DNA from: Candidatus Thiodiazotropha sp. LNASS1
GTDB taxonomy: Bacteria > Pseudomonadota > Gammaproteobacteria > Chromatiales > Chromatiaceae
Direction of reading: 5' to 3'
Assembly: GCF_964212655.1 (NCBI RefSeq)
Contig: NZ_OZ156465.1
Span: forward strand, 2,294,001-2,358,000
Length of the DNA: 64,000 bases
Shown here: piece by piece, positions 16,477 to 28,516 of the stretch
How positions within the stretch are numbered: position 1 is the first letter of the stretch
Layout of the letters: every line of letters starts with the position of its first letter
Position numbers and translations under genes: made by a program
The notes under the pieces: model-generated
The model's database searches: none
The model's input: the letters and a program-made list of their open reading frames with translations, nothing else
What the model was told of the DNA's origin: nothing

Positions 16477-17682
16477 ATGACCTCAACCACACTGCTTGGC
16501 CAACTGAGCAGTCTGCATGCATCGCAGATTGATCTATTGACGTCCATTCCAGCCGCAGATTGCGCCAGACAATTTCATCCACGACTTGCCTCACTCAACT
16601 GGTATTTCGGCCGTGGCGTCTATCTGGAACTGCTATGGCTCAGAGAGCGGTTGCAACACGATGACGACCTTTCCATGAGAGTTGAACAACTCTTTTCTCC
16701 GAATGCATTGACTCTGGAACAACAATGCAGCCGGTTGCCATCTGTTGATCACCTGATCAACTGGGGTTCGGAGATTCATGACGAACATCTGCGCAGACTA
16801 GCCACTCCATCTGCACTGCCCGATCATCCCTGGCTCCATCATGACAGACTCCCCTGGTTCCTGCTGCAAGAGCAGGCGAAACTCTATGAAGCCATGTTGA
16901 TCCTTCTTAACCAGCGATCTCTCCAGGAACGGGATCAGGCATATCAATGCAAGGAACCGCTTGAACCCGGCATACCCAAGTGGGAAACCAGGGAGATTTC
17001 CCAGGGACACTATCGCATCGGCGCCCGGGATGAACCACGCGCTTACGATAATGAGCTGCCACCACAAGCCGTTGAACTCAGCAGTTTTCGGATAGCACTG
17101 ACGCCGGTATCAAATGCGCAATATCTCAGTTTTATGCAGGCGGACGGTTATAACGATGATTCGCTGTGGATTAACGAAGGTTGGCAGTGGCTGAATCATC
17201 ATGGTCACAGACACCCCGAATATTGGCGGCAGGATCATAGGGGTGGATGGTATGAAGTGGCTATCAACGGTATCTCTCACCTGCCGCCCAATGAACCGGT
17301 TACCGGTATCTCCCACTATGAGGCCCAAGCCTTCTGCAACTGGGTTGGCCGCCGTGAAAACGGTGAATTCTCAGGTGCCGTGATCCAGCATGAATATCAG
17401 TGGGAATTGGCAGTGCGCACGGGTGTTGTGAGCCAAATGGGGCGCGCCTGGGAGTGGTGCGGTAACAAATATCACCACTATCCCTCATTTCAACCCTTTC
17501 CCGATGACAGGGCTTCAACCCAGGCTGTAGGCGATAAACACTACTCTCTGCGGGGTGCCAGCTTACACACGCAACCCACGCTGCGTCGCGCCAGCTTCCG
17601 TCACTGGGCCTTGCCCTCTGACCACCACCAGTTCACAACCGTCCGGCTGGTCTTCCCGCCACGCCATCAATGGGCTTCATAG
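16477..17682 (+). CDS. EgtB/FGE-like protein with altered metal site
   Basis: A 401-residue protein built like ergothioneine-synthase EgtB. An N-terminal DinB-like helical domain (about 1-150) precedes a formylglycine-generating-enzyme-like sulfatase-modifying domain (about 165-395). The latter has NEPVTGISHYEAQAFCNWVG and the EgtB-type end WEWCGNKYHHYPSF then LRRASFRHWALP. True EgtB binds iron with a helix-1 His and an HxxxH pair. Here the aligned positions read Arg46 (in NWYFGRG) and Gln131 and Lys135 (in LLQEQAKLYE). It may have lost sulfoxide-synthase activity or use another site. No EgtD methyltransferase gene lies nearby. AAGGGTG precedes the ATG closely. Confidence 0.83.
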   Translation: MTSTTLLGQLSSLHASQIDLLTSIPAADCARQFHPRLASLNWYFGRGVYLELLWLRERLQHDDDLSMRVEQLFSPNALTLEQQCSRLPSVDHLINWGSEIHDEHLRRLATPSALPDHPWLHHDRLPWFLLQEQAKLYEAMLILLNQRSLQERDQAYQCKEPLEPGIPKWETREISQGHYRIGARDEPRAYDNELPPQAVELSSFRIALTPVSNAQYLSFMQADGYNDDSLWINEGWQWLNHHGHRHPEYWRQDHRGGWYEVAINGISHLPPNEPVTGISHYEAQAFCNWVGRRENGEFSGAVIQHEYQWELAVRTGVVSQMGRAWEWCGNKYHHYPSFQPFPDDRASTQAVGDKHYSLRGASLHTQPTLRRASFRHWALPSDHHQFTTVRLVFPPRHQWAS

Positions 17683-17839
17683 GCCTGCTATCACAAACCC
17701 TGTAGCCCCCCACCCTCGGGAACGGAATTCACCAATTCGACCACCCACCCCCTATTTAAGAACGAATCAATTAAAGAATCGGGAAAAACTGCCAACAAAC
17801 GGATTAGAACGGCTGTATTTAAAGGAAGCTGCATCTATC

Positions 17840-18076
17840 ATGGGTATCAATTCGATAACAGGACCGGCACTTCAGGGGATTCAAAAGGGATTCCAGGGGA
17901 TGCGTCGTGTAGCATCGGAGATCGCCAGCACCCAGCAGACCAATCAAGCCAAACCGACTGATCTCTCCCGTGCCATGGTTGAACTGCAACAACATGCCAA
18001 CCATACCAAGGCGCAAGTGAAAACCCTGAAAACCGCCAATGAACTGATCGGCACACTGATCGATGAGCGCGTATAG
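17840..18076 (+). CDS. 78-residue protein resembling flagellar rod proteins
   Basis: Small soluble, largely helical protein. The start is an internal ATG with AGGAAG about 11-13 nt upstream; the open frame extends upstream but that part is not protein-like. The N-terminal helix GPALQGIQKGFQGMRRVA and the C-terminal helix VKTLKTANELIGTLIDERV recall the paired termini of FlgB/FlgC-type axial proteins, which form a coiled coil around the rod. There is no central domain and no flagellar gene within the window. It could be an orphan rod-like or unrelated coiled-coil protein. The function is unproven. Confidence 0.6.
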   Translation: MGINSITGPALQGIQKGFQGMRRVASEIASTQQTNQAKPTDLSRAMVELQQHANHTKAQVKTLKTANELIGTLIDERV

Positions 18077-18088
18077 AAACAGGGTTGT

Positions 18089-18931
18089 TTAGTCTATAAA
18101 CAACATCGAGAGATCAACTGCCCTGACATCCTTGGTCAAGGCTCCGACAGAGATATCATCCACGCCCGTTTCGGCAATCGAGCGTATTGTCTCGAGGTTA
18201 ACGCCGCCGGAAGCCTCAAGCCTTGCCTGTCCGGCATTCATCGCCACCGCCTCACGCAACATCTTCAGCCCAAAGTTATCCAACAGTATCCTTTTGGCTC
18301 CGGCGGACAACGCCTCATCAAGCTGAGCCAAGGATTCCACCTCCACTTCGATCTCCACCCCGTCGGTTGCGATCTGGTTAGCCCGTTTCAGTGCGGCCCC
18401 AATCGATCCGGCAATTTGCACATGATTCTCTTTAAGGAGGATGGCGTCATACAGACCAATACGGTGATTCCGGCCGCCACCACAGGCCACCGCATATTTC
18501 TGCTGCACCCTAAGGCCGGGAATGGTCTTTCGGGTGTCGAGTATGGTCACACCCGTTCCCTCCACTGCCTCCACATAGCGACGTGTCACCGTTGCGGTTG
18601 CCGATAGGGTCTGTAGATAATTGAGTGCCGTCCGTTCACCGCTCAACAATGATCTATTGTTACCCTGCAACCTGCAAAGCAACGAGCCGGGAGTGACAGA
18701 GTCTCCATCTGCAACCCGCCAATCGAGTTCAATGCTACCATCCAATTGACCGAAGACTTGATTCACCCAGGCAACACCACATATCACGGCATGTTGTCGG
18801 CAGATAATGTGTGCTCGCGCTAGAACGTGCTCATCCAGCAACTCGGCAGTCAAATCGCCAGTGCCAAGATCCTCCGACAATGCCTGTCCAACCTGTTCAT
18901 TGATCAGGTTGAGGGGCGGCAGCCTGCTCAT
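18089..18931 (-). CDS. nadC: quinolinate phosphoribosyltransferase
   Basis: Decarboxylating transferase that makes nicotinate mononucleotide from quinolinate and PRPP in de novo NAD synthesis. At 280 residues it is the usual size. Motifs include [13 protein letters not shown] at the N-terminus, [20 protein letters not shown] near residue 130 with the Arg/Lys substrate cluster, [20 protein letters not shown] near residue 150, and [18 protein letters not shown] at the end. Its ATG overlaps the stop of the FKBP gene by 4 nt, which couples their translation. It converges on the 78-residue gene. Confidence 0.97.
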
Positions 18932-19275
18932 CCCTCGACGGAAAGTAGTTCAACATCGAATACCAATGTGGCATTCGGAGGGATCACGCCACCGGCTCCC
19001 TGAGCGCCATACCCCAATTGCGGTGGAATTGTCAGCCTTCTTTTGCCACCCACCTTCATGCCGGCAACCCCCTCATCCCATCCGGCAATCACCATGCCCT
19101 TGCCTAAAGTAAAATCAAAGGGTTGGTTACGATCCAGGGAGGAGTCGAATTTTTCTCCATCGAGCAGCCAGCCGGTATAGTGTACCGAGACCCGATTACC
19201 GGATATTGCAATATCCCCTGTCCCCTTGTTCAGATCTTCAAACTTCAGCCCGGAATCTGTGATTTTTTCACTCAT
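18928..19275 (-). CDS. FKBP-type peptidyl-prolyl isomerase
   Basis: A 115-residue single-domain FKBP that isomerises prolyl peptide bonds. It has no signal peptide and so should be cytoplasmic. The complete fold is visible: [52 protein letters not shown] and [15 protein letters not shown], including the conserved Tyr, Phe, Asp, Trp and Tyr pocket residues. The ATG is chosen over a TTG two codons earlier. Its stop overlaps the nadC start (ATGA). An FKBP coupled to nadC has no obvious biochemical reason. Confidence 0.95.
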
Positions 19276-19459
19276 GATCAACCCTGTCCTCTTAACGGTG
19301 CAATAAAACAGTTAACTGACCGTGTACGGTCGATTGGAATTTCTTATCAGCTGCTTATGCATGGCGTCAAGCCATCGCTTTGTGTGGTATGTGGCGCCTG
19401 ATAGGGATAAATCTGCTTCTTTAACAGGCTAGGGCCTGTTAACACTCATCCAATCGGCC

Positions 19460-21799
19460 CTAGGCTGATGCAGAGGTTGAAGTTGTTTTCTTCAAAGCAT
19501 CGAGCATTGCATCCAGGGCTCGATCCATGATCGGCTTGGCTGAAAGTTCCACCTTTTTCGCCGTGCCTTCACGCAAACGCTTGGCCAGGCCGAAGGTGGT
19601 GAGTTCCATGGCTTTCATGCCTTTACGGTTAACGAAGATATAGGTATCTGTAACATTGCTTTTCCACGACAATTTGACCCGAACCTTACTGCTTCCATCA
19701 ATGATTTCAAGCCATTCACCGGTTTCCAGATCAACCGCCTGCTGAGTGAAATCATCATTCTCACTGATCGCTTCTTCAGCCATTTCATGCAGCTGGCTGT
19801 TGGGATCAGCCACAAGTTTGCTATCCGGAAAATGGATCTCATACTGGTTAACCGGCATCGTTCCAGCGGTATGTATCTGACTGCTGTCTCCGCCACGCAA
19901 GACGCCGATATGGCAGTTTTGCAACTCTTTAAACAACTTGGCCATTTTATGTTGATCAAATGAGATGCTATTCAGCCGTTCGCGGATATTTCTCAACAGT
20001 TCAGGGATACCGCGCAGTAATTGCTGCCTTTCCCCATATTCGGACTTGGGTTGTACACTCCACAACAGCCTGTCAACGATTTCCAATGCCTCGCTCCAGC
20101 CTTTACTCTCCGATCCTTCACGCAGGTAGATAAGTAACAGTACATCTTTCCAGCCGTCCTCAAGAATAGACATCACCGCCTCGGGAATGACATTTTGAGT
20201 GCGTAACCGCTTGTTTAGCTCTTCAGAAACGATCTGCTTGGCTGATTTGAGCTGCTCTTTTCCCTTGGTTATCTGATTGGTGCGCTGCTCCGCAATCTGT
20301 GCGCCTCGCTGCTCCTTCTGCCACCAACTCGAGAAATCCTCTTCCAACTCCGCAAACAGACCGGGATCGTCGTGGAACTCGTTCAAAACCCTTTTTACTA
20401 CCTGCTCGATCTTTTTATACAGGGTGTCGTTGGCACGATCACCTGTATCATTCCAGCCAACAGCTGCCTGAGCCAGGCTGTTGAGTAAACGCCTTGCGGG
20501 ATGAACCTTCTGACTGAAAAAAGTCTTGTCGATGATCGCCACTTTCAGCATGGGTATCTGCAGACGACTGATCAGTGCCTTCATGGCATCGGGCAGGCTG
20601 TAATCATCGAGGATAAACTCGAAGATCATGGAGATGACATCGATAGTATCGTTGTCCGCATCCCCAAGAGAGCGTACGACCTGACCATCTCTGGCGATCT
20701 GCAGATCAGTGACCAATTGAGCCCGCATCTCATCGGGTGTCAGGGGCTGATTGACTCGACGCCCTTGTGGCAGCATCACCACATTCGACTGCTGGATAGC
20801 TGAGAGCGCACCCAGGAGTTCACCTGTATCGACAACTGGAACATTGCCGGCCGGTGGGGTAAGCATCAGACTGGATGCCAACAGACTGCTTCCACCGGCA
20901 CTTGCACGTCTGAGGTTGAGCAGTTGCTGCAGGTTTGAAAACAACTCAGCCTGGATCACCTCTTCCGTTGCGGCTGTTGCGGTGGATGCGGGTGCGGATG
21001 AACTCATATAGGATGAGTCACTTGCCATGTAGCTTTCGCCCCCATCACCACGCAAGCTTGGGGAAACCGGATTGCGGCGGACCTTTGGTGTCAGCTTGGG
21101 TATGACACCGGCACGGCCCAAGAGCAGATTGATCTCATCATACAGGCCACCGATATAGTGCATCACGTGGCGGTCAAACAACTTGTAGACAACCAATTTG
21201 ACCGGCAGCTCAACTGGAACACCCGCCATCGAGATCTGGAATGCGTTACAGATGACACCCGGCGCCAGTGGGGTGTGTTGGGCCATAGTCTCATCGACAG
21301 ATCCACCCCCGATCAGGTAGCCGAAACGTTGACTCATGGCGTAGAGTTCGCGAGTGTAGCGGCTCTCGGATTTGCTGACCATATTAGTGACGGCTAATGA
21401 GTCTTCCAGATCCTCATCATCCACCAGCGACATTTCCGATTCCAGACTCAGTTCATCGAGGGTCGGTTGTTGGATCGTTATTTCGCCCGTTTGCCAGTAA
21501 CTATCGTAGGCCCGCAGGACTTCCTGGTTAAACCTGCGATCGATACCTGACCGCTGCTTGCGGAGCTCTCGCATGGAGTCGAAATAGATATTCTGCAGGG
21601 CGTTGCTCTCGGATTTGTTGGCCATTTCATAGAGAGCATCATCGAGATTCTCGAATAGGCCGCTCATCAATTTTGGTAACGTTTTACCTACGAGATTGCG
21701 ACACTCAGACGCAATCCTACGTCCGTTCACGTCAAGAGTGATTTTTTTTCGACGGGGCACAGCTGAGCCGAATGTAATAATGTTGTCTTGCCTTCGCAT
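19460..21799 (-). CDS. DUF1631 family protein
   Basis: Large soluble protein of 779 residues, of the kind often mis-named thymidine phosphorylase. The N-terminal part (1-175) begins with FGSAVPRRKKITLDVNGRR and LPKLMSGLFENLDDALYEMA. A low-complexity Ser/Ala/Thr linker follows at about 245-285, then a helical body. The C-terminal small beta module (about 690-760) has TGEWLEIIDGSSKVRVKLSW, as in other DUF1631 members. There are no membrane segments and no recognised catalytic motif. The family is common in gammaproteobacteria and may be regulatory, but the role is unknown. It is monocistronic and faces away from the DUF1538 operon. Confidence 0.88.
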   Translation of the reverse strand: MRRQDNIITFGSAVPRRKKITLDVNGRRIASECRNLVGKTLPKLMSGLFENLDDALYEMANKSESNALQNIYFDSMRELRKQRSGIDRRFNQEVLRAYDSYWQTGEITIQQPTLDELSLESEMSLVDDEDLEDSLAVTNMVSKSESRYTRELYAMSQRFGYLIGGGSVDETMAQHTPLAPGVICNAFQISMAGVPVELPVKLVVYKLFDRHVMHYIGGLYDEINLLLGRAGVIPKLTPKVRRNPVSPSLRGDGGESYMASDSSYMSSSAPASTATAATEEVIQAELFSNLQQLLNLRRASAGGSSLLASSLMLTPPAGNVPVVDTGELLGALSAIQQSNVVMLPQGRRVNQPLTPDEMRAQLVTDLQIARDGQVVRSLGDADNDTIDVISMIFEFILDDYSLPDAMKALISRLQIPMLKVAIIDKTFFSQKVHPARRLLNSLAQAAVGWNDTGDRANDTLYKKIEQVVKRVLNEFHDDPGLFAELEEDFSSWWQKEQRGAQIAEQRTNQITKGKEQLKSAKQIVSEELNKRLRTQNVIPEAVMSILEDGWKDVLLLIYLREGSESKGWSEALEIVDRLLWSVQPKSEYGERQQLLRGIPELLRNIRERLNSISFDQHKMAKLFKELQNCHIGVLRGGDSSQIHTAGTMPVNQYEIHFPDSKLVADPNSQLHEMAEEAISENDDFTQQAVDLETGEWLEIIDGSSKVRVKLSWKSNVTDTYIFVNRKGMKAMELTTFGLAKRLREGTAKKVELSAKPIMDRALDAMLDALKKTTSTSASA

Positions 21800-22251
21800 C
21801 TATTGCCACTTGAAGGTATCCATCAATATCCAAAAAGATGCCGACCGGTCCCTGATACCCGCATCTAGCCTAAGGCTATGTTACTTCACGGATATCGTTT
21901 GAGAATAACCTCACATTAAGCGCCTTTCAGCGATAAGAAATGAAGCTAAATACCCAGGGCACAAAGGGAAAATTAGCACCAAACGCACGTATAATCAATG
22001 AGTTCTACAAAAAACCAATCATATGGTCGTAATACCAGCCGGCACCATCCCAGCTGAGTGCCTCATACTTTTGCGAAATTAATTCCGATTCGCCATTCTT
22101 CCACCCATCGATGAAGAGAAAATCTCGCCCGACTTGGCAGGTGGATAGATACCTATGGGCGTTTTTTCCATCAAAACGGATCGACCCGATCTCCAATATA
22201 GGGTAATTTGAGGAATAGAAGCTGACGTGAATCTAAGGTATCGTTCAATGA
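21800..22251. other. 452-bp intergenic stretch with no firm gene
   Basis: Divergent space between the DUF1631 gene and the DUF1538 operon, more AT-rich than its flanks, that should hold the promoters of both. I could not place convincing -35/-10 pairs. It contains one short protein-like reading frame on the minus strand, listed separately, and no hairpin terminator or repeat that I could recognise. Confidence 0.5.
22005..22196 (-). pseudogene. short protein-like frame, possible gene remnant
   Basis: A 63-codon frame with an amino-acid composition like a real globular protein end (FDGKNAHRYLSTCQVGRDF then LFIDGWKNGESELIS). It has several Trp, Tyr and Gly residues and a clean stop. The only start is TTG, without a Shine-Dalgarno sequence. 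The frame stays open upstream for another dozen codons to an in-frame TAG (22233-22235), with no ATG. It may be the 3' remnant of a decayed gene or chance coding. I do not recognise the family. Confidence 0.3.
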
Positions 22252-23055
22252 TTGCGGAATAGCTCCAAAAGGCCTGTCCCAAAGAAGAGCAATAAACGAC
22301 CTGAAACAGCCCCACCTCCATCGATGCGCCTACTCAAACGCCTATTCTCTTCCCTCGCCGACAGCATCCGTGATCTGCTGCCGATTGTACTGGTCATCAC
22401 CTTTTTTCAGTTGGTGGTCCTGCAGCAGCCAATACCCAATCTCGGCACCATCCTCATAGGATCGGTGCTGGTCCTGCTGGGCCTGACCCTGTTTATCGAG
22501 GGCTTGAATCTTGGCCTATTTCCAATCGGCGAAGGCATGGCATGGGATTTTGCAAGGAAGGGCAGCCTGACCTGGCTGCTGCTGTTCGCTTTCGCCCTCG
22601 GATTCGGTACAACGGTGGCTGAGCCCGCATTGATCAAAATCGCCCAGGAGGCAGCCAATGTGGCCGCTGTCGGCGGTATGATCGAAAATACAGCCCATGC
22701 ACAAGAGGAGTATGCCCAAGGATTACGCTACACCGTAGCGATATCCGTCGGATTCGCAATTGTGTTCGGCGTAGTGCGTATCGTTAAGGGCTGGCCCGTG
22801 GAGTATCTGATCATTGGCGGTTATCTTGGTGTTGTATTAATGACAGCTATAGCACCAAAAGAAATTATTGGTATTGCATATGACTCAGGTGGGGTCACCA
22901 CATCCACAGTCACCGTTCCCCTGGTTACCGCCCTTGGCGTAGGACTCGCCTCCAGCATCAAGGGCCGCAATCCAATGACCGATGGATTCGGCCTGATCGC
23001 CTTTGCCTCTCTGACCCCGATGATCTTCGTCATGGGATATGGATTACTGCTATGA
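22252..23055 (+). CDS. DUF1538 membrane protein, first subunit
   Basis: Integral membrane protein with about six to seven TM helices. The family signature appears at [18 protein letters not shown] (about residue 118) and at [20 protein letters not shown] (about residue 220), a motif shared almost word for word with the next gene. From memory, paired DUF1538 proteins (UmpAB) have been reported as a two-subunit Na+(Li+,K+)/H+ antiporter in Halomonas; here that role is inference. The frame opens with TTG and a basic, proline-rich tail of 24 residues before an ATG at 22324, so the true start is uncertain. It overlaps the second subunit by 4 nt. Confidence 0.87.
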
Positions 23056-23834
23056 ACGAAGCCTTGCAGCACTTCTTCGCAGTGATGATAGGCACGATCC
23101 TCGATGTCCTGCCGATCGCCGGTATCCTTATTGGCTTCCAGTTCCTGGTTCTGCGCAGACCGATAAAAAACCCTAAAGAGGTCCTGTTTGGCTTTCTTCT
23201 GGTTCTGTTTGGCCTGGTATTTTTCCTGGAGGGGCTGGATCTGGCCCTCTTCCCACTGGGCGAGTTGATGGCGAATCAGCTCACCTCCCCTGAAATACTC
23301 AATATTCCCACTACGGCCGGTACCGTTCAATGGCACCACTACTTCTGGGTCTATCTGTTTGCGGCCAGCATCGGCTTCTCCACCACCATTGCAGAACCCT
23401 CCCTGATTGCTGTCGCCATCAAGGCGAATCAAGTCTCTGCAGGCGCCATCAGTCAGTGGGGATTACGCATTGCGGTCGCCATCGGCGCTGCGGTCGGTGT
23501 CTCCCTGGGTTGCTACCGGATAATTTCCGGCACGCCTTTACACTGGTACATCATGGTGGGTTATGTGGTGGTGATTGTGCAGACAGTCTATGCCCCCCGT
23601 TCGATCATCGCCCTGGCTTACGATTCCGGAGGGGTAACCACTTCCACTGTCACGGTTCCACTAGTTGCGGCTCTTGGACTTGGACTATCGAGTAATATAC
23701 CGGGACGCAATCCTGTGATGGACGGCTTTGGCCTCATCGCCTTTACCTGCCTTTTTCCGATCATGTCAGTCATGGCCTACGCTCAGCTGAGCGAATGGCG
23801 TTCGAAAAGAAAGACAGATGATACAACGAGGTAA
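23052..23834 (+). CDS. DUF1538 membrane protein, second subunit
   Basis: A 260-residue paralogue of the preceding gene, with the same architecture: paired hydrophobic hairpins, [20 protein letters not shown] near residue 113 and [20 protein letters not shown] near residue 198. The two proteins probably form a heteromeric transporter, with the conserved EP and DSGGVTTS segments lining the path. Its ATG overlaps the upstream stop (ATGA). A PII-like gene starts 5 nt after its stop. Antiport of monovalent cations is the best current guess from the family. Nothing in the sequence fixes the ion. Confidence 0.9.
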
Positions 23835-23839
23835 ATCTC

Positions 23840-24190
23840 ATGCACTTCAAACTCATCATCGCCCTGGTAGAAGACACTACAACCGAAAAGGTTCTTGAGG
23901 CTGCCCGATCCGCAGGAGCCACAGGCTCCACAGTCATCAATCATGCGCGTGGCGAGGGCGTCAACCAGTCAAAGACATTTCTCGGTTTGACCCTTGATAC
24001 TCAACGGGATGTATTGTTGCTGCTGGTCGAGGAGCATCTCAGTCGTACCATTCTGGAGACAATATCAAAAGCCGGCCAGTTTGATGAAGAACCGGGAAAT
24101 GGCATCGCCTTTCAACTAGACATCGAAGATGCGGTCGGCGTCAGCCACCAGATCCAGACACTCACACAAGTTATCGAGGAGGAGTTATGA
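23840..24190 (+). CDS. PII-like signalling protein
   Basis: A 116-residue ferredoxin-like trimeric-type protein of the P-II superfamily. The first beta-alpha-beta is LIIALVEDTTTEKVLEAARS, a glycine-rich turn AGATGSTVINHARGEG leads into the T-loop region, and a second repeat starts at VLLLLVEEHLSRTILETI. The T-loop is short and the protein contains no tyrosine, so GlnD-type uridylylation at Tyr51 is impossible. It lies between a DUF1538 transporter pair and a CBS gene, with GAGG 8 nt upstream. The context suggests a dedicated transporter regulator, like SbtB with SbtA, rather than nitrogen control. The ligand is unknown. Confidence 0.88.
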   Translation: MHFKLIIALVEDTTTEKVLEAARSAGATGSTVINHARGEGVNQSKTFLGLTLDTQRDVLLLLVEEHLSRTILETISKAGQFDEEPGNGIAFQLDIEDAVGVSHQIQTLTQVIEEEL

Positions 24191-24600
24191 ACGATCGACA
24201 ACTAATCAGGGTTCGGGATGTCATGAAAACCGACTTTGACATGGTCGACGGGATGGATACCGTACTAATGGCACTTGAACGCATGATCCATATAGAGACC
24301 AAATCGTTGATTGTCAAAAAACGCAATGACGACGACGAGTATGGATTGGTGATGCTTTCCGATATTGCCCGCCAGGTACTGGCCAAGGACCGGGCGCCGG
24401 AGCGGGTCAATATTTATGAAATCATGACCAAGCCTGCATTGACCGTCTCTTCAAGTATGGACATTCGCTACTGCGCAAGAATCTTCAGCCGCTTTGACCT
24501 TTCCAGAGCGCCTGTCGTGGACAACCGCGAAATCGTGGGTATCGTCAGCTATACCGATATGGTGTTGAAAGGGCTCAAAACCAAATCGGAACTGAGTTGA
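24187..24600 (+). CDS. tandem CBS-domain protein
   Basis: A 137-residue cytoplasmic protein made of two CBS motifs (about 10-65 and 75-132), with RVRDVMKTDFDMVDGMDTV and IYEIMTKPALTVSSSMDIR. A pair of this kind usually binds adenine nucleotides and senses energy status. The spacing and the VVDNREIVGIVSYTDMVLK ending are canonical. Its ATG overlaps the PII-like stop by 4 nt, and its own stop overlaps the next start. It therefore belongs firmly to the DUF1538 operon and may give the transporter a second nucleotide sensor. Confidence 0.9.
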   Translation: MNDRQLIRVRDVMKTDFDMVDGMDTVLMALERMIHIETKSLIVKKRNDDDEYGLVMLSDIARQVLAKDRAPERVNIYEIMTKPALTVSSSMDIRYCARIFSRFDLSRAPVVDNREIVGIVSYTDMVLKGLKTKSELS

Positions 24601-25151
24601 TCCAATCTGAAGACATTCTACTGGATTGCGCTGAGTTTCACCCATCGGAAAACATGGATGACCGACCTCCTGAAACTGAGGTCGACCTGCTTGTCATTCA
24701 CAGTATCAGCCTGCCTCCCGGCGAGTTTGGAGGGGGCTGGATCGATGATCTGTTCATGAACAAACTCGATGTTACGGCAGACCCATATTTTACCGAAATA
24801 AAAGCACTCAAGGTCTCTTGTCACCTACTCATCCAGCGCACAGGCAAAATAACGCAATATGTCCCCTTGAACCGGCGGGCGTGGCATGCCGGGGAATCTC
24901 ATTATTGCGGTCGGAACTGCTGCAATGATTTCTCCATCGGCATCGAACTTGAAGGCTCGGACGAGATACCCTTCACAGATGATCAATACCAGGCCCTGCA
25001 GCAAGTCACCAGAGAAGTCATGCACCACTATCCTGCGATCACCCACGATCGTATAACAAGCCATGCCGCCATTGCGCCGGGGCGTAAAACAGATCCCGGG
25101 CCGATGTTCGACTGGCCACGCTATTTAGACTCGATATCAGCACCGGAGTGA
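24597..25151 (+). CDS. ampD: 1,6-anhydro-N-acetylmuramyl-L-alanine amidase AmpD
   Basis: Cytoplasmic zinc amidase that cleaves the peptide from anhydromuropeptides during cell-wall recycling. It is 184 residues long, as in E. coli (183). The zinc ligands His35 (LLVIHSISLPPGEF), His156 and Asp166 (in APGRKTDPGPMFDWPR) are all present, as are Glu117 and Lys164 of the active site. The TTG start gives a full match to the AmpD N-terminus and overlaps the CBS stop (TTGA); no ATG fits. It is the last tightly linked gene of the DUF1538 operon, an unexpected place for wall recycling. ampE follows after 219 bp. Confidence 0.95.
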   Translation: MIQSEDILLDCAEFHPSENMDDRPPETEVDLLVIHSISLPPGEFGGGWIDDLFMNKLDVTADPYFTEIKALKVSCHLLIQRTGKITQYVPLNRRAWHAGESHYCGRNCCNDFSIGIELEGSDEIPFTDDQYQALQQVTREVMHHYPAITHDRITSHAAIAPGRKTDPGPMFDWPRYLDSISAPE

Positions 25152-25370
25152 CCCTCCCTGCCGTCATATAATGAGAATCCTGCTTCCGGGGAAGATCCAA
25201 CCATTGCCTGGTGATGGCGATGTATGCTTCGCTGGGCATGTCCCTGTCGAGGCATAACATCGATAAGGGAGCCAACTTGTAAGGGTTGAATCCCATACAA
25301 AGTTGCATAACATGCCTCAAACCTCAGGATATGTATTGAAACTTATCTTCGATTATCTGACACTTGCCCG
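25152..25370. other. 219-bp gap between ampD and ampE
   Basis: An unusually long space for an ampD-ampE pair. It contains no convincing promoter or terminator that I can see. A 7-bp inverted pair GAGGCAT / ATGCCTC is about 65 bp apart near 25250-25320. A minus-strand frame here looks like non-coding sequence. Confidence 0.35.
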
Positions 25371-26258
25371 ATGACTCTGACGATCATTTTAATCTGCCTG
25401 ATAGCAGAACGTTTTCTACTCGGTTACAGCGAATTGCGTAACAATGGCTGGTTGACTACCTATTACCAGTGGTTTGACCGGCACCAGCTACCCCAACGGA
25501 TGAGGCAGGGTGTCATCGGGGTACTGCTGTTGATACTGCCACCCGTGCTTGCGCTGTCAATATTGCAACATCTGTTTGAAGATGCCCTGTTCGGATTGCT
25601 CTGGTTCGCACTCTCGGTGGCAATTCTGCTCTACTGTCTGGGTCCCAATGACCTGGACTCGCAAGTCAACCGCTATATCGAGGCCGTCGATAGTGATGAG
25701 GATAACGAAATCAGGGCCACTGCCGCCGCGCTTCTCAAGGATGAACCGCCAACCAGCGAACCGGCACGCTCTCAAGCGGTGGCCGAAGGCGTGCTGGCCC
25801 AGGCAAACCAAAGTCTGTTTTCAGTACTCTTTTGGTTCATACTGTTGGGTCCAATCGGCTCGATGGCCTATCGCATCGCCACCTGGCTGCCGACAATGGA
25901 GCAGGCCAATCAAGATCCCGATTTCCACCTCAACAGCAAACAGTTGGTCACAATCCTTGATTGGATTCCTGCTAGATTAACCGCTTTCTGTTACGCCATC
26001 GCAGGCAGTTTCGAGGACGCCCTTTACGGCTGGCGCAGCTACCACGAAAACCGATTCAGCGAATTCGCCGACAGCAACAGCGGAACCCTGATCTGTACCG
26101 GCGGCGGTGCCATGCGGCTCTCGACGCTGATCAACGAAGCGAATGAGGGAATGCAATCCTTCAGCTTTCTTGCCAAAGCCGCCATGGCCCTCGTCTGGAG
26201 ATCGCTTGTTGTCTATCTGGTGATAGTCGCACTTCTCACATTCAGCGGACTGGTTTAG
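25371..26258 (+). CDS. ampE: AmpE-like membrane protein
   Basis: A 295-residue inner-membrane protein of the AmpE family, related in fold to CobD/CbiB. TM helices lie at about 1-15, 45-85, 143-165 and 265-292. The family segment RFLLGYSELRNNGWLTTYYQ is near the N-terminus, and a polar loop CTGGGAMRLSTLINEANEG is near residue 243. In enterobacteria it neighbours ampD and is linked to beta-lactam induction. Here the amp regulator ampR and an ampC gene are absent from the window. The ATG has no strong Shine-Dalgarno. Confidence 0.9.
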   Translation: MTLTIILICLIAERFLLGYSELRNNGWLTTYYQWFDRHQLPQRMRQGVIGVLLLILPPVLALSILQHLFEDALFGLLWFALSVAILLYCLGPNDLDSQVNRYIEAVDSDEDNEIRATAAALLKDEPPTSEPARSQAVAEGVLAQANQSLFSVLFWFILLGPIGSMAYRIATWLPTMEQANQDPDFHLNSKQLVTILDWIPARLTAFCYAIAGSFEDALYGWRSYHENRFSEFADSNSGTLICTGGGAMRLSTLINEANEGMQSFSFLAKAAMALVWRSLVVYLVIVALLTFSGLV

Positions 26259-26861
26259 GTGGCTGACAGGGTCACCAGGATCGATCTGTTGCGCCATGGA
26301 GAACCTGTCGGCGGGAGGCGCTATCGGGGACAGATTGATGATCCCTTGAGTGACCGCGGATGGGAACAGATGTGGCAAGCCGTTTCCGGTGGACGCCCCT
26401 GGCAGGCCATTGTCAGTTCACCCCTGCGTCGTTGCAGCGAATTTGCCACTGCCCTGGGACGTGAACTCAAGATTGCCGTAGAGCTTGATGAACGGCTGAA
26501 AGAGGTTGGTTTCGGCGACTGGGAAGGCCAAACGGGTGACCAGCTCCGCATGCGTGACCAGGCAATCCTGTCACGCTTTTACCACGACCCAATTCAAAAC
26601 CGGCCTCAACAGGCCGAGGATTTGAATCATTTTAATGAACGGGTTCTTGACGCCTACAGCAACGCCTGTGAGCGTTTTCTGGGCCAGCATCTGCTGCTTG
26701 TGGCCCATGCGGGCGTGATTCGCTCGATTATCAACCACACCCTGCAAGCCCCCCTCAATTCCATGTACCGGCTTTCCATTGCCACCGCAAGCCTTACGCG
26801 TATCAGGATAGACAGCGAGCGCCCCCCCACGCTGATCTTCATGGGCAGGTCCCGTCTTTAA
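26259..26861 (+). CDS. histidine phosphatase family protein (CobC-like)
   Basis: Cytoplasmic phosphoglycerate-mutase-fold phosphatase of 200 residues. The catalytic RHGE motif is at 12-15, with phospho-accepting His13. SSPLRRCSEFA near residue 53, the proton-donor Glu in LKEVGFGDWEGQT near residue 85 and VAHAGVIRSII near residue 148 complete the site. Its GDWEG signature resembles alpha-ribazole phosphatase CobC, but no cobalamin genes are adjacent and the substrate is open. It starts with GTG immediately after the ampE TAG, so translation is likely coupled by reinitiation. Confidence 0.9.
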   Translation: MADRVTRIDLLRHGEPVGGRRYRGQIDDPLSDRGWEQMWQAVSGGRPWQAIVSSPLRRCSEFATALGRELKIAVELDERLKEVGFGDWEGQTGDQLRMRDQAILSRFYHDPIQNRPQQAEDLNHFNERVLDAYSNACERFLGQHLLLVAHAGVIRSIINHTLQAPLNSMYRLSIATASLTRIRIDSERPPTLIFMGRSRL

Positions 26862-26873
26862 TTGCAAACGAAT

Positions 26874-26896
26874 GTGAACTAATTCACGCTTTTTTT
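26874..26896 (+). terminator. short hairpin with seven-T tail
   Basis: GTGAA, loop CTAA, TTCAC, then GC and seven T residues, starting 12 bp after the phosphatase stop. The stem is only 5 bp and AT-rich, so it is a weak but well-placed candidate terminator for the ampE-phosphatase transcript. Confidence 0.45.
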
Positions 26897-27007
26897 AAGC
26901 CTTTCTTAAGCTAACTCAGTTATATATCACATAAAACTGACTGTATCTGATCTATGGTTGGCGTAACTGGCTCAGTGCAGTTCAAACATAATAAGAGGAG
27001 AAATCAA

Positions 27008-27091
27008 ATGACATGGTTACTACTCGCGTCACTGACTGTCATTGTTGTGTCCGTGTTAACGATGAAATCTATAGAATTCCCTGATCGATAG
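27008..27091 (+). CDS. candidate 27-residue membrane peptide
   Basis: A short frame MTWLLLASLTVIVVSVLTMK followed by seven polar residues and TAG. It predicts one TM helix (about 3-18) and a short charged tail. A near-ideal Shine-Dalgarno (AGAGGAG, 7-8 nt before the ATG) and an upstream AT-rich stretch with TATATA argue that it is translated. It lies alone in the gap between the phosphatase terminator and the convergent methyltransferase gene. I know no homologue. It could be a single-helix regulator of a membrane complex or a small toxin-like peptide, and neither is shown. Confidence 0.5.
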   Translation: MTWLLLASLTVIVVSVLTMKSIEFPDR

Positions 27092-27141
27092 ATTTTAGCT
27101 ATATCGCTGGTCGGCATGTGTCCCAATCGGGAAAACCCGGG

Positions 27142-27699
27142 TCACACTGGACTCTGATGCTGGCGCACATACTCGTACATAACGATAGATGCCGCCACCG
27201 AGACATTCAGACTCTCCACCTGCCCGAATTGAGGAATGGACACCGACAGGATATCCGGGTAGTCCTCCTCATTGAAGCTGTGACCCCACTCCTCATGGCC
27301 CAGAACAAAGGCAATCCTGCTATCCATACTGAAATTGGTTAGTATGCGCTTACACCCCCCTTCCAGCTTTACAATCTGGTATCCACGTTTAGTAAGTTCC
27401 CGATAACTTTGATCGAAGCTGTCGAAAAAAAGCGCCGGTACCTTTTTAAATGCCCCTTTCCCTGGCGCAGGATCAAAAGGACCAATATTCACCAAGTGAA
27501 CTTCGTGCGCGCCGAAAGCCTCGGCACTGCGAAAGATCTTCGCCACGTTGAACCCGGCCTTCATCTGATCCAGTACCAGGATAAACTGATGTACACCGGG
27601 CTTCGCCAACAGGTTTCTCTGGCGCTGCTTGGTGTACCGCAGCATTGCCTGATCCCGCTCAACTCTGCGTTCTTTTTTGCTTTTTCTCTCTCTGATCAT
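27142..27699 (-). CDS. TrmH/SpoU-family RNA 2'-O-methyltransferase
   Basis: SAM-dependent knotted methyltransferase of 185 residues acting on tRNA or rRNA. SPOUT motif 1 is FNVAKIFRSAEAFGAHEVHL near residue 55, motif 2 is RIAFVLGHEEWGHS near residue 130, and motif 3 is SIPQFGQVESLNVSVAASIV near residue 155. The basic N-terminal tail (RERKSKKERRVERDQ) may bind RNA. The ATG at the start of this tail is preferred over a longer frame whose first 90 codons are not protein-like. The exact target nucleotide cannot be assigned. Confidence 0.9.
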   Translation of the reverse strand: MIRERKSKKERRVERDQAMLRYTKQRQRNLLAKPGVHQFILVLDQMKAGFNVAKIFRSAEAFGAHEVHLVNIGPFDPAPGKGAFKKVPALFFDSFDQSYRELTKRGYQIVKLEGGCKRILTNFSMDSRIAFVLGHEEWGHSFNEEDYPDILSVSIPQFGQVESLNVSVAASIVMYEYVRQHQSPV

Positions 27700-27853
27700 A
27701 ATAAATCCGGGTGGTCGTTGATTTGACAACAGCCTGCCGGGATACATCCAATCGGCACAAAGACCATGACAATTGTCCAGGCTATTCTCGTTCCGTTGTT
27801 GGATTATGCATGCTGTAATACCACCACGAAAGTGAGTAGGCGGGTGATTGAAT

Positions 27854-28516
27854 ATGCAGGTAACTAATGTCAGCCGGGTCCTGGTCTGGAGCAGTAGACT
27901 CAGACTCGCCCACTGGATTCTCGGGCTCTCCTGCATCGGGTTGCTGATCACCGGTTGGCTCATGAACAATACACCCCTGATGGCACAAAGCGCTGCCGAG
28001 ATTCACTTTATGCTCAGCGGCCTGTTTCTGCCAGCACTGCTGTTGAGAATTTACCTGCTCCTATTTGGTAAAGGCAGCGAACACCTCTCCTCCTGTGAGC
28101 CGGACCTGCATCGTCTGTCGCAAGCATGGTTAGTGTTGAAGTTTTATTTAACTCTCGGTAAAGCACCCTTACCCAAATGGTACAGCCACAACCCGCTTTG
28201 GGGACCTGCCTACCTGGCACTCCACTTTTTCATGCTTTTGATTGCTGCCAGCGGTCTGTTTCTGCTCAAGGGTATCTCGATGATTGGCGGGTTGAGTCTC
28301 AACGATCTGCATCACTTGAGTTACCTGGTGATAGCAACTTTTACCCTGCTCCACATCATTGCGGTTTTCAGCCATGATCTTGCTGGCAAGGGTTCGGACA
28401 TATCTGGCATGATTAATGGGCAACGTATCTTTGAAACAGATAACCCCCGGCACGACGACAACATTGGAACCCAGAGCATTGCACTTGAGGAACTGATGAA
28501 AAGTTTGAAACGCTGA
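27854..28516 (+). CDS. cytochrome b561-type diheme membrane protein
   Basis: Inner-membrane electron carrier of 220 residues with four main TM helices (about 18-38, 50-70, 118-140, 165-185). Candidate heme ligands are His in LRLAHWILG, EIHFML, LALHFFML, NDLHHLSYL and LLHIIAVFSH. The pattern fits the bacterial b561 / Ni-hydrogenase-type cytochrome b family, which passes electrons between quinones and periplasmic partners. No partner cytochrome or dehydrogenase gene is adjacent. The ATG is chosen over a TTG two codons earlier. It is divergent from the methyltransferase gene and convergent with the ribosomal cluster. Confidence 0.85.
   Translation: MQVTNVSRVLVWSSRLRLAHWILGLSCIGLLITGWLMNNTPLMAQSAAEIHFMLSGLFLPALLLRIYLLLFGKGSEHLSSCEPDLHRLSQAWLVLKFYLTLGKAPLPKWYSHNPLWGPAYLALHFFMLLIAASGLFLLKGISMIGGLSLNDLHHLSYLVIATFTLLHIIAVFSHDLAGKGSDISGMINGQRIFETDNPRHDDNIGTQSIALEELMKSLKR

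Follow-up and report, generated by a model that had tools for sequence, protein, structure and literature searches.

A stretch of 64,000 nucleotides (nt) from Candidatus Thiodiazotropha sp. LNASS1 (contig NZ_OZ156465.1, positions 2,294,001 to 2,358,000), called the window throughout, carries a chain of genes for two DUF1538 membrane proteins (umpA and umpB), a PII-like regulator and a stand-alone pair of CBS domains. These four genes probably encode one regulated transporter, a PII-gated antiporter that follows the logic of GlnK–AmtB and SbtB–SbtA. The proposal was built on computed gene order and conservation, a PII fold, lost residues, an opposite charge bias and synteny. A PII-family gene is found almost always right behind the pump, often together with a CBS sensor. 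Many bacteria may thus use metabolic signals for direct control of the pump. If the partnership is true, PII control would extend to alkali-cation/proton exchange. In the open-access literature searched, with subscription papers outside its scope, one functional study of DUF1538 proteins was found, but no structure and no paper tying PII or CBS genes to DUF1538.

Gene chain and its conservation

The window genome consists of one contig of 4.75 Mb and contains the DUF1538 pair once. Its nearest named relatives were Candidatus Thiodiazotropha genomes, which belong to sulfur-oxidising symbionts, with UmpB identities of up to 95%. The umpA gene (22324..23055, + strand) and umpB (23052..23834, +) meet in an ATGA junction, in which the umpA stop ends at 23055 and the umpB ATG lies at 23052. 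After a spacing of 5 nt from the umpB end, the PII-like gene follows (23840..24190, +), and it overlaps the CBS gene (24187..24600, +) by 4 nt. The CBS gene in turn joins ampD (24597..25151, +) through TTGA. This five-gene chain and its junctions are as the original prediction had given them. Only the extent of umpA had to be corrected. Its start had been placed at TTG 22252, and it most likely lies at ATG 22324, because the three relatives that were translated upstream of this methionine (L073, L077 and L074) have in-frame stops there.

Conservation was analyzed in two sets of loci. The named loci are the best 80 of 591 confirmed UmpB-profile matches and are biased to close relatives. The wider set comprises 40 loci from 39 genomes, which were hand-picked for family spread among the best-scoring listed DUF1538 places. 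With start codons set by script, the PII–CBS overlap was exactly 4 nt in 66 of the 76 named loci measured, and of 77 loci measured for umpA and umpB, 39 showed an overlap of 4 nt and 24 an overlap of 1 nt. Because both overlaps recur across the named loci, the chaining goes beyond chance, and from the 4-nt overlap PII and CBS are probably co-translated. Behind the DUF1538 pair, PII and CBS genes were present in 79 of the 80 named loci; in the sole exception (L130) another gene begins 289 nt past umpB. The wider loci contained PII in 37/40 and CBS in 28/40 cases. Across the two sets, L038 and L140, whose over-long open reading frames hid PII and CBS from a scripted count, were taken as having both genes. 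PII was missing from L057, L059 and L064, and L057 and L064 come from two genomes of family f60. The original prediction had staked itself on a conserved DUF1538-DUF1538-PII-CBS order, and the order holds: PII is the near-universal, constant partner of DUF1538, and CBS occurs frequently within one large group.

The association was also observed at the level of whole genomes. DUF1538 occurs in 126 of the 398 genomes of the phylum. A profile built from 28 PII-like proteins, used at a threshold of E 1e-10, likewise matched in 126 of the 398. The PII-like gene was found in 120 of the 126 genomes with DUF1538 versus 6 of the 272 without. For strong matches the numbers were 100/126 versus 5/272 (Fisher p 3e-62, uncorrected for relatedness). 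Among the matches listed, we compared the places of 96 DUF1538 hits (one per genome or contig) and 121 strong PII matches. A strong PII match lay at most 3.5 kb away from 92 of the 96 DUF1538 places, and 93 of the 121 PII matches lay within 3.5 kb of a listed DUF1538 place. The remaining 28 include short contigs, the three cases from f60, and paralogues from several families, f48 among them; in one of the 28 (G036) the DUF1538 place is merely unlisted, and another (G109) has a DUF1538 fragment alongside. Six DUF1538 genomes (G172, G218, G236, G245, G272 and G281) gave no PII match. Three of these were opened: in G172 the PII gene is present and interrupted by masked bases, G281 runs into the end of its contig, and G245 contains none.

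Properties of the encoded proteins

UmpA (243 amino acids; PF07556 E 1.1e-68, 231.1 bits) and UmpB (260 amino acids; E 3.5e-67, 226.2 bits) both score above the PF07556 cut-off of 22.6 bits and thus are tandem homologous members of the DUF1538 family. They are 49% identical to each other and share a 15-letter motif ([15 protein letters not shown]), as had been noticed before. Their best NCBIfam matches are, in gene order, the models for UmpA and UmpB, with scores of 379.6 bits (cut-off 490) and 350 bits (cut-off 500). By these scores the window pair is a homologue of UmpAB that lies outside the NCBI equivalog. The UmpAB of Halomonas zhaodongensis mediated Na+(Li+,K+)/H+ exchange in E. coli KNabc; seven helices were predicted per protein, the genes overlap, and a hetero-dimer was reported by co-immunoprecipitation (PMC5484666). 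The window pair is likewise a homologous membrane pair with overlapping genes. The terms 'CBS' and 'nitrogen regulat' are absent from the text of that study, as are 'topolog', 'antiparallel' and 'inverted' (PMC5484666).

The topology of the pair was predicted by counting lysine and arginine residues in the loops. Alignment A4 was used, whose rows are the window and the named loci and whose loops were set by the UmpB model. The counts favoured an N-terminus inside in 43 of 43 UmpA sequences and outside in 69 of 69 UmpB sequences, with a basic C-terminal tail of the window UmpB predicted inside. From this opposite charge bias an antiparallel UmpA–UmpB heterodimer is predicted, which gives a clear topology prediction for the DUF1538 transporter family. 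The arrangement fits five natural fusions (L034, L036, L038, L039 and L047), whose linkers look by eye too polar for an additional helix. In a sixth fusion (L096) the linker is longer and, again by eye, less clear. UmpB was modelled alone with AF2, because an alignment built on the natural fusion L096, from which the whole heterodimer might have been modelled, placed the rows of both proteins over one half. The model reached a predicted local distance difference test score (pLDDT) of 92.6 and a predicted template modelling score of 0.84, and its helices break near TTIAEP and [13 protein letters not shown]. Compared with solved structures, its best match stayed at noise level (Foldseek E 0.76, VIA Z 5.6), and SbtA was not among the matches shown. 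This result does not make the fold new, and it speaks neither for nor against an SbtA-, NhaA- or UraA-like fold.

The third protein (116 amino acids) belongs to the PII superfamily. It matches PF00543 (P-II; E 3.6e-12, 47 bits against a cut-off of 25), and its model (pLDDT 81.2) has the PII fold (VIA Z 12.6, root-mean-square deviation 3.1 over 85 aligned residues of 1ufl_B). Its sequence similarity to SbtB is weak (6n4a, E 0.039), and at E 0.01 no NCBIfam model matched this protein or three other PII-like proteins. It is, however, not a nitrogen PII, because almost all of the 101 homologues compared have lost the ATP-phosphate residues of GlnB. In E. coli GlnB we take these residues to be R38, K90, R101 and R103, the 2-oxoglutarate residues to be Q39 and K58, and Tyr51 to be uridylylated. 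The window protein carries V41, I89, G100 and S102 at the four ATP-phosphate positions. R38 was replaced in 99 of the 101 homologues (R in 2), K90 in all (I, V, L or M throughout), R101 in all (G throughout) and R103 in 96 (R in 5). Q39, Tyr51 and K58 correspond to N42, T54 and a gap in the window protein, in a T-loop alignment that is uncertain owing to a 5-residue gap. All three are mostly or wholly gone among the homologues, with Q at position 39 in 9 of 101, where the alignment is less certain. Thus both residue sets that mark GlnB and GlnK, for ATP phosphates and for 2-oxoglutarate and Tyr51, are missing, which speaks against sensing in the canonical PII manner.

Other positions of GlnB were retained, namely T29 (101/101), G37 (100/101), G87 (97/101) and G89 (100/101). 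A newly conserved surface was found that comprises KTFFGL (with G49 and L50 invariant), Q55-R56-D57, E64-E65-H66, D97, G100 and Q104. The window protein is acidic, with 19 D/E and 8 K/R residues, and the mean net charge of 74 PII-like sequences was -8.8, while the C-terminal tail of UmpB is basic. The two other PII genes of the window genome retain all GlnB residues tested. The public records that were opened annotate the PII-like partner as 'P-II family nitrogen regulator', on these residues a probable misannotation that the partnership with DUF1538, if real, would correct.

The fourth protein (137 amino acids; PF00571 E 7.7e-17) is a stand-alone CBS pair. Its best solved match was the cyanobacterial CBS-CP12 (PDB 5nmu; E 2.4e-19 over residues 7-129), which binds AMP (PMC9406205). 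By sequence the protein thus lies near an AMP-binding CBS sensor, and a ligand of the adenylate type is supported. This agrees, on the basis of similarity, with the adenylate-binding pair that had been proposed for it.

Proposed gating and alternative explanations

The original prediction of a regulated cation antiporter is supported in part, by the conservation of PII and CBS beside DUF1538, but the link hinted at for ampD is not supported, and the PII-like sensor would not work in the usual way. From these data we infer complex formation, the gating and the direction of its effect, the ligands and the substrate as follows. UmpA and UmpB, two homologous seven-helix proteins, would insert in opposite orientation and form an antiparallel heterodimer that, by analogy to the Halomonas UmpAB, exchanges monovalent cations for protons. 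A PII-like trimer made from the same message would dock on the cytoplasmic face, at the basic tail of UmpB and the loops, through its conserved KTFFGL T-loop. Once docked, it may open or lock the transporter in the manner of GlnK on AmtB or of SbtB on SbtA, but it would read neither 2-oxoglutarate nor the ATP triphosphate canonically. The CBS pair may add an adenylate energy signal, most likely AMP or ATP, either via PII or directly on UmpAB; its place seems to be taken by a second PII-like protein or domain in other lineages.

Several known systems resemble this arrangement. GlnK binds and blocks AmtB, and SbtB, a PII-like trimer, locks the Na+-coupled SbtA in its AMP-bound form (PMC10710835). 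GlnK–AmtB likewise combines a PII protein with a transporter, and GlnK has the same PII fold (2ns1_B, Z 11.9). It differs in the transporter family and in its GlnK-type ATP and 2-oxoglutarate residues and uridylylated tyrosine, which the PII-like protein lacks. SbtB–SbtA is also a PII-like protein paired with a transporter, but SbtA is a bicarbonate importer. We know of no CBS partner for GlnK–AmtB or SbtB–SbtA. By gene context, a further likeness is found in PII-NG, a PII group encoded with the CzcABC metal antiporters (PMC7726332), where a PII-like group is again encoded with a proton–cation antiporter, albeit of another family.

A number of observations weigh against the proposed gating. 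Gating by PII is said to be confined to transporters that can act as trimers (PMC10710835), and UmpAB was reported as a hetero-dimer (PMC5484666). UmpAB alone was active in E. coli (PMC5484666), so that the regulators are not needed for activity; they might brake it, tune it or serve otherwise. CBS was absent from 12 of the 40 wider loci, of which one is truncated by the end of its contig. In a mirror-tree comparison of 20 loci, the partial correlation of UmpB with PII (r 0.60) did not separate from the control, PII with AmpD given nadC (0.63), so that the comparison was uninformative. PII and CBS also occur away from DUF1538. In 3/3 family f60 loci (L164-L166; genomes G084, G116 and G156) they lie behind a malic enzyme–phosphotransacetylase (PTA) gene, where the contig of the third locus holds only the end of the upstream gene. 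In G084 and G116 the DUF1538 pair is on another contig with no PII beside it. The PII–CBS pair may thus be a portable regulatory cassette. Finally, PII-like paralogues in f48 adjoin dusB and NtrC-type genes.

An unlikely alternative is that UmpAB is PII-gated, but that its main substrate is not Na+, K+ or H+. The rescue of KNabc would then be a side activity, and the PII-like protein would couple transport to some other metabolite or ion, much as SbtB serves bicarbonate uptake. Several of the named hosts come from genera that we take to be marine or haloalkaliphilic, which fits cation exchange and speaks against this alternative, as does the best match of the first window protein to the UmpA model and of the second to the UmpB model. 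On the other side, these proteins remain below the NCBI cut-offs, the UmpB model matched no solved antiporter above noise, PII–CBS also stands behind the malic enzyme gene in f60, and antiport is known from one functional study by expression in E. coli KNabc (PMC5484666). A growth-pH model lists DUF1538 among its key features (PMC13255231), again in favour of a cation exchanger.

It is improbable that the PII-like and CBS proteins form a free-standing metabolic regulator, which is only co-expressed with UmpAB and acts on an enzyme such as malic enzyme. The f60 loci, and the DUF1538 pair without PII in two of those genomes, would be explained in this way, but PII stays next to DUF1538 whether the latter is split, fused or very divergent.

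Even less probable is a Gram-negative version of DarA/DarB, in which both regulators would be receptors for cyclic di-AMP (c-di-AMP) tied to potassium balance. DarA is a PII-like protein and DarB a CBS pair. There are precedents for such receptors: PstA is a PII-like c-di-AMP receptor (PMC4316997), and c-di-AMP, which is bound by both DarA and DarB, functions in potassium and osmotic balance (PMC7900238). The likeness lies in a PII-like and a CBS protein acting in ion balance, and the difference in the dependence on c-di-AMP. Many f40 genomes have both DUF1538-PII-CBS and a diadenylate cyclase domain, and the domain was found in most genomes of that family. In contrast, a search for the domain (PF02457, E 0.001) found none in the window genome or in 21 other DUF1538 genomes of the same class, and the closest solved CBS relative binds AMP (PMC9406205). 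For the window genome, where no c-di-AMP synthase domain accompanies the PII-like protein as it would a PstA/DarA receptor, c-di-AMP was rejected as the common signal.

The gene ampD encodes a 1,6-anhydro-MurNAc-L-Ala amidase (Amidase_2 E 2.9e-33; AmpD equivalog PRK11789 269 bits, cut-off 143). It lies 3' of CBS in 20 of the 80 named loci, in 8 of these 20 with a 4-nt overlap. A profile from one AmpD detected it in none of the remaining 60 named loci, some of which end early, and in none of the 40 wider loci. The window and 19 of the 20 ampD loci have nadC upstream in the opposite orientation; the twentieth (L075) gave no nadC match. In E. coli K-12, nadC is directly divergent from ampD-ampE, with nothing between. 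This is most simply explained by an insertion of the ump module between nadC and ampDE, with ampD reflecting packing, not function. Since the module lies inside this nadC/ampD-ampE neighbourhood, ampD probably stands outside the regulatory set, and the suggested coupling of ion or turgor control with wall recycling, the least probable of the alternatives despite the overlaps, is not supported, as the synteny accounts for the position of ampD.

With these alternatives weighed, the PII-gated UmpAB antiporter may be placed in a wider frame. More tentatively, and with somewhat less than even confidence, we propose a widespread class of metabolite-gated ion exchangers, formed by an antiparallel heterodimer of 7+7 helices for which no solved relative was detected, a near-obligate PII-like gate that has exchanged 2-oxoglutarate and ATP-phosphate sensing for a different signal, an exchangeable second sensor (an AMP-type CBS pair in one lineage, a second PII protein or domain elsewhere) and a portable PII–CBS cassette. 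Such a class is undescribed within the open-access literature searched. If it exists, pH and sodium balance would be tied to the energy state, and PII–CBS could be attached to further targets such as malic enzyme. If the partnership of UmpAB and PII is real, the stable module of two to four genes would offer a direct way to ask how ion and pH balance are connected to the energy state.

Divergent forms and neighbouring genes

Fused and distant forms of DUF1538 keep the PII partner. Among the 120 genomes with both DUF1538 and PII, 20 have weak PII matches alone. In eight of these weak-PII genomes DUF1538 was analyzed, and all contain single open frames of 425 to 612 codons with two DUF1538 matches. 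Of 15 leftover loci, mostly with divergent fused DUF1538 (L215 not included), PII lies directly behind DUF1538 in 13, L203 included; L208 has none and L213 ends at a contig edge. A second, weaker PII-like gene follows the first in 5 of 12 of these PII-bearing loci by profile match, and that of L202 reached 17.8 bits against the Pfam P-II cut-off of 25. A search centred on the genome of L122, a Nitrospirae record, found DUF1538 in 8 of 148 genomes. PII was beside DUF1538 in 7 and CBS in 6 of these 8 loci, one of which is also among the 80 named.

The layout was found on plasmids as well. Four clostridial or Bacillota plasmid records matched, and the three that were opened all carry it. In Paraclostridium and Peptoclostridium a fused DUF1538 gene of ~500 amino acids is followed by a 222-amino-acid 'P-II family nitrogen regulator' (L192:4129-4797 and L193:4132-4800), and a Subdoligranulum plasmid has the same fused DUF1538-PII layout by open reading frame calls. 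In the 222-amino-acid protein of L192, the C-terminal half alone reaches Pfam P-II, and the N-terminal half resembles a second PII lobe. A plasmid search with UmpB at E 1e-5 returned two Methylocystis records alone, with the order DUF1538-DUF1538-PII on a Methylocystis plasmid. Outside the large group with CBS, we read a second PII protein or domain as occupying the position of CBS.

Some clusters deviate from the usual composition. Three consecutive DUF1538 genes precede PII and CBS in one locus (L185:5058-7264). Another (L038:2496-6687) combines a split DUF1538 pair, a fused DUF1538 gene, two PII genes and one CBS gene in a single cluster. CNNM/CorC-type CBS-domain genes adjoin DUF1538-PII operons that have no small CBS gene in L062:6609-9213 and L063:1-2307; the assignment comes from Pfam for one of the two, and L063 is cut by the contig end. 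PII-like paralogues without DUF1538 were observed upstream of dusB and NtrB/NtrC-like genes in L154, L155, L157 and L163, the last of them near an amino-acid-kinase (ArgB-like) gene. These calls were made with Pfam for L155 and L163 and by eye for L154 and L157.

In the window, an ampE-like gene (25371..26258, +) lies 3' of ampD; it matches PF17113 (E 1.4e-14), and CobD_Cbib better (E 5.9e-19). The nadC gene (18092..18946, - strand) shares 49% identity over 293 amino acids with nadC of L135. A search of 17500-28000 against Rfam gave nothing at the gathering score. Promoter-like sites numbered 2 versus 4.6 in shuffled sequences, and terminator-like sites 8 versus 3.9 (standard deviation 2.1). 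Between nadC and umpA lie an FKBP-type gene and a DUF1631 gene. The latter (19460-21799, -) is divergent from the operon, and relatives of it were found upstream in 12 of the fetched loci.

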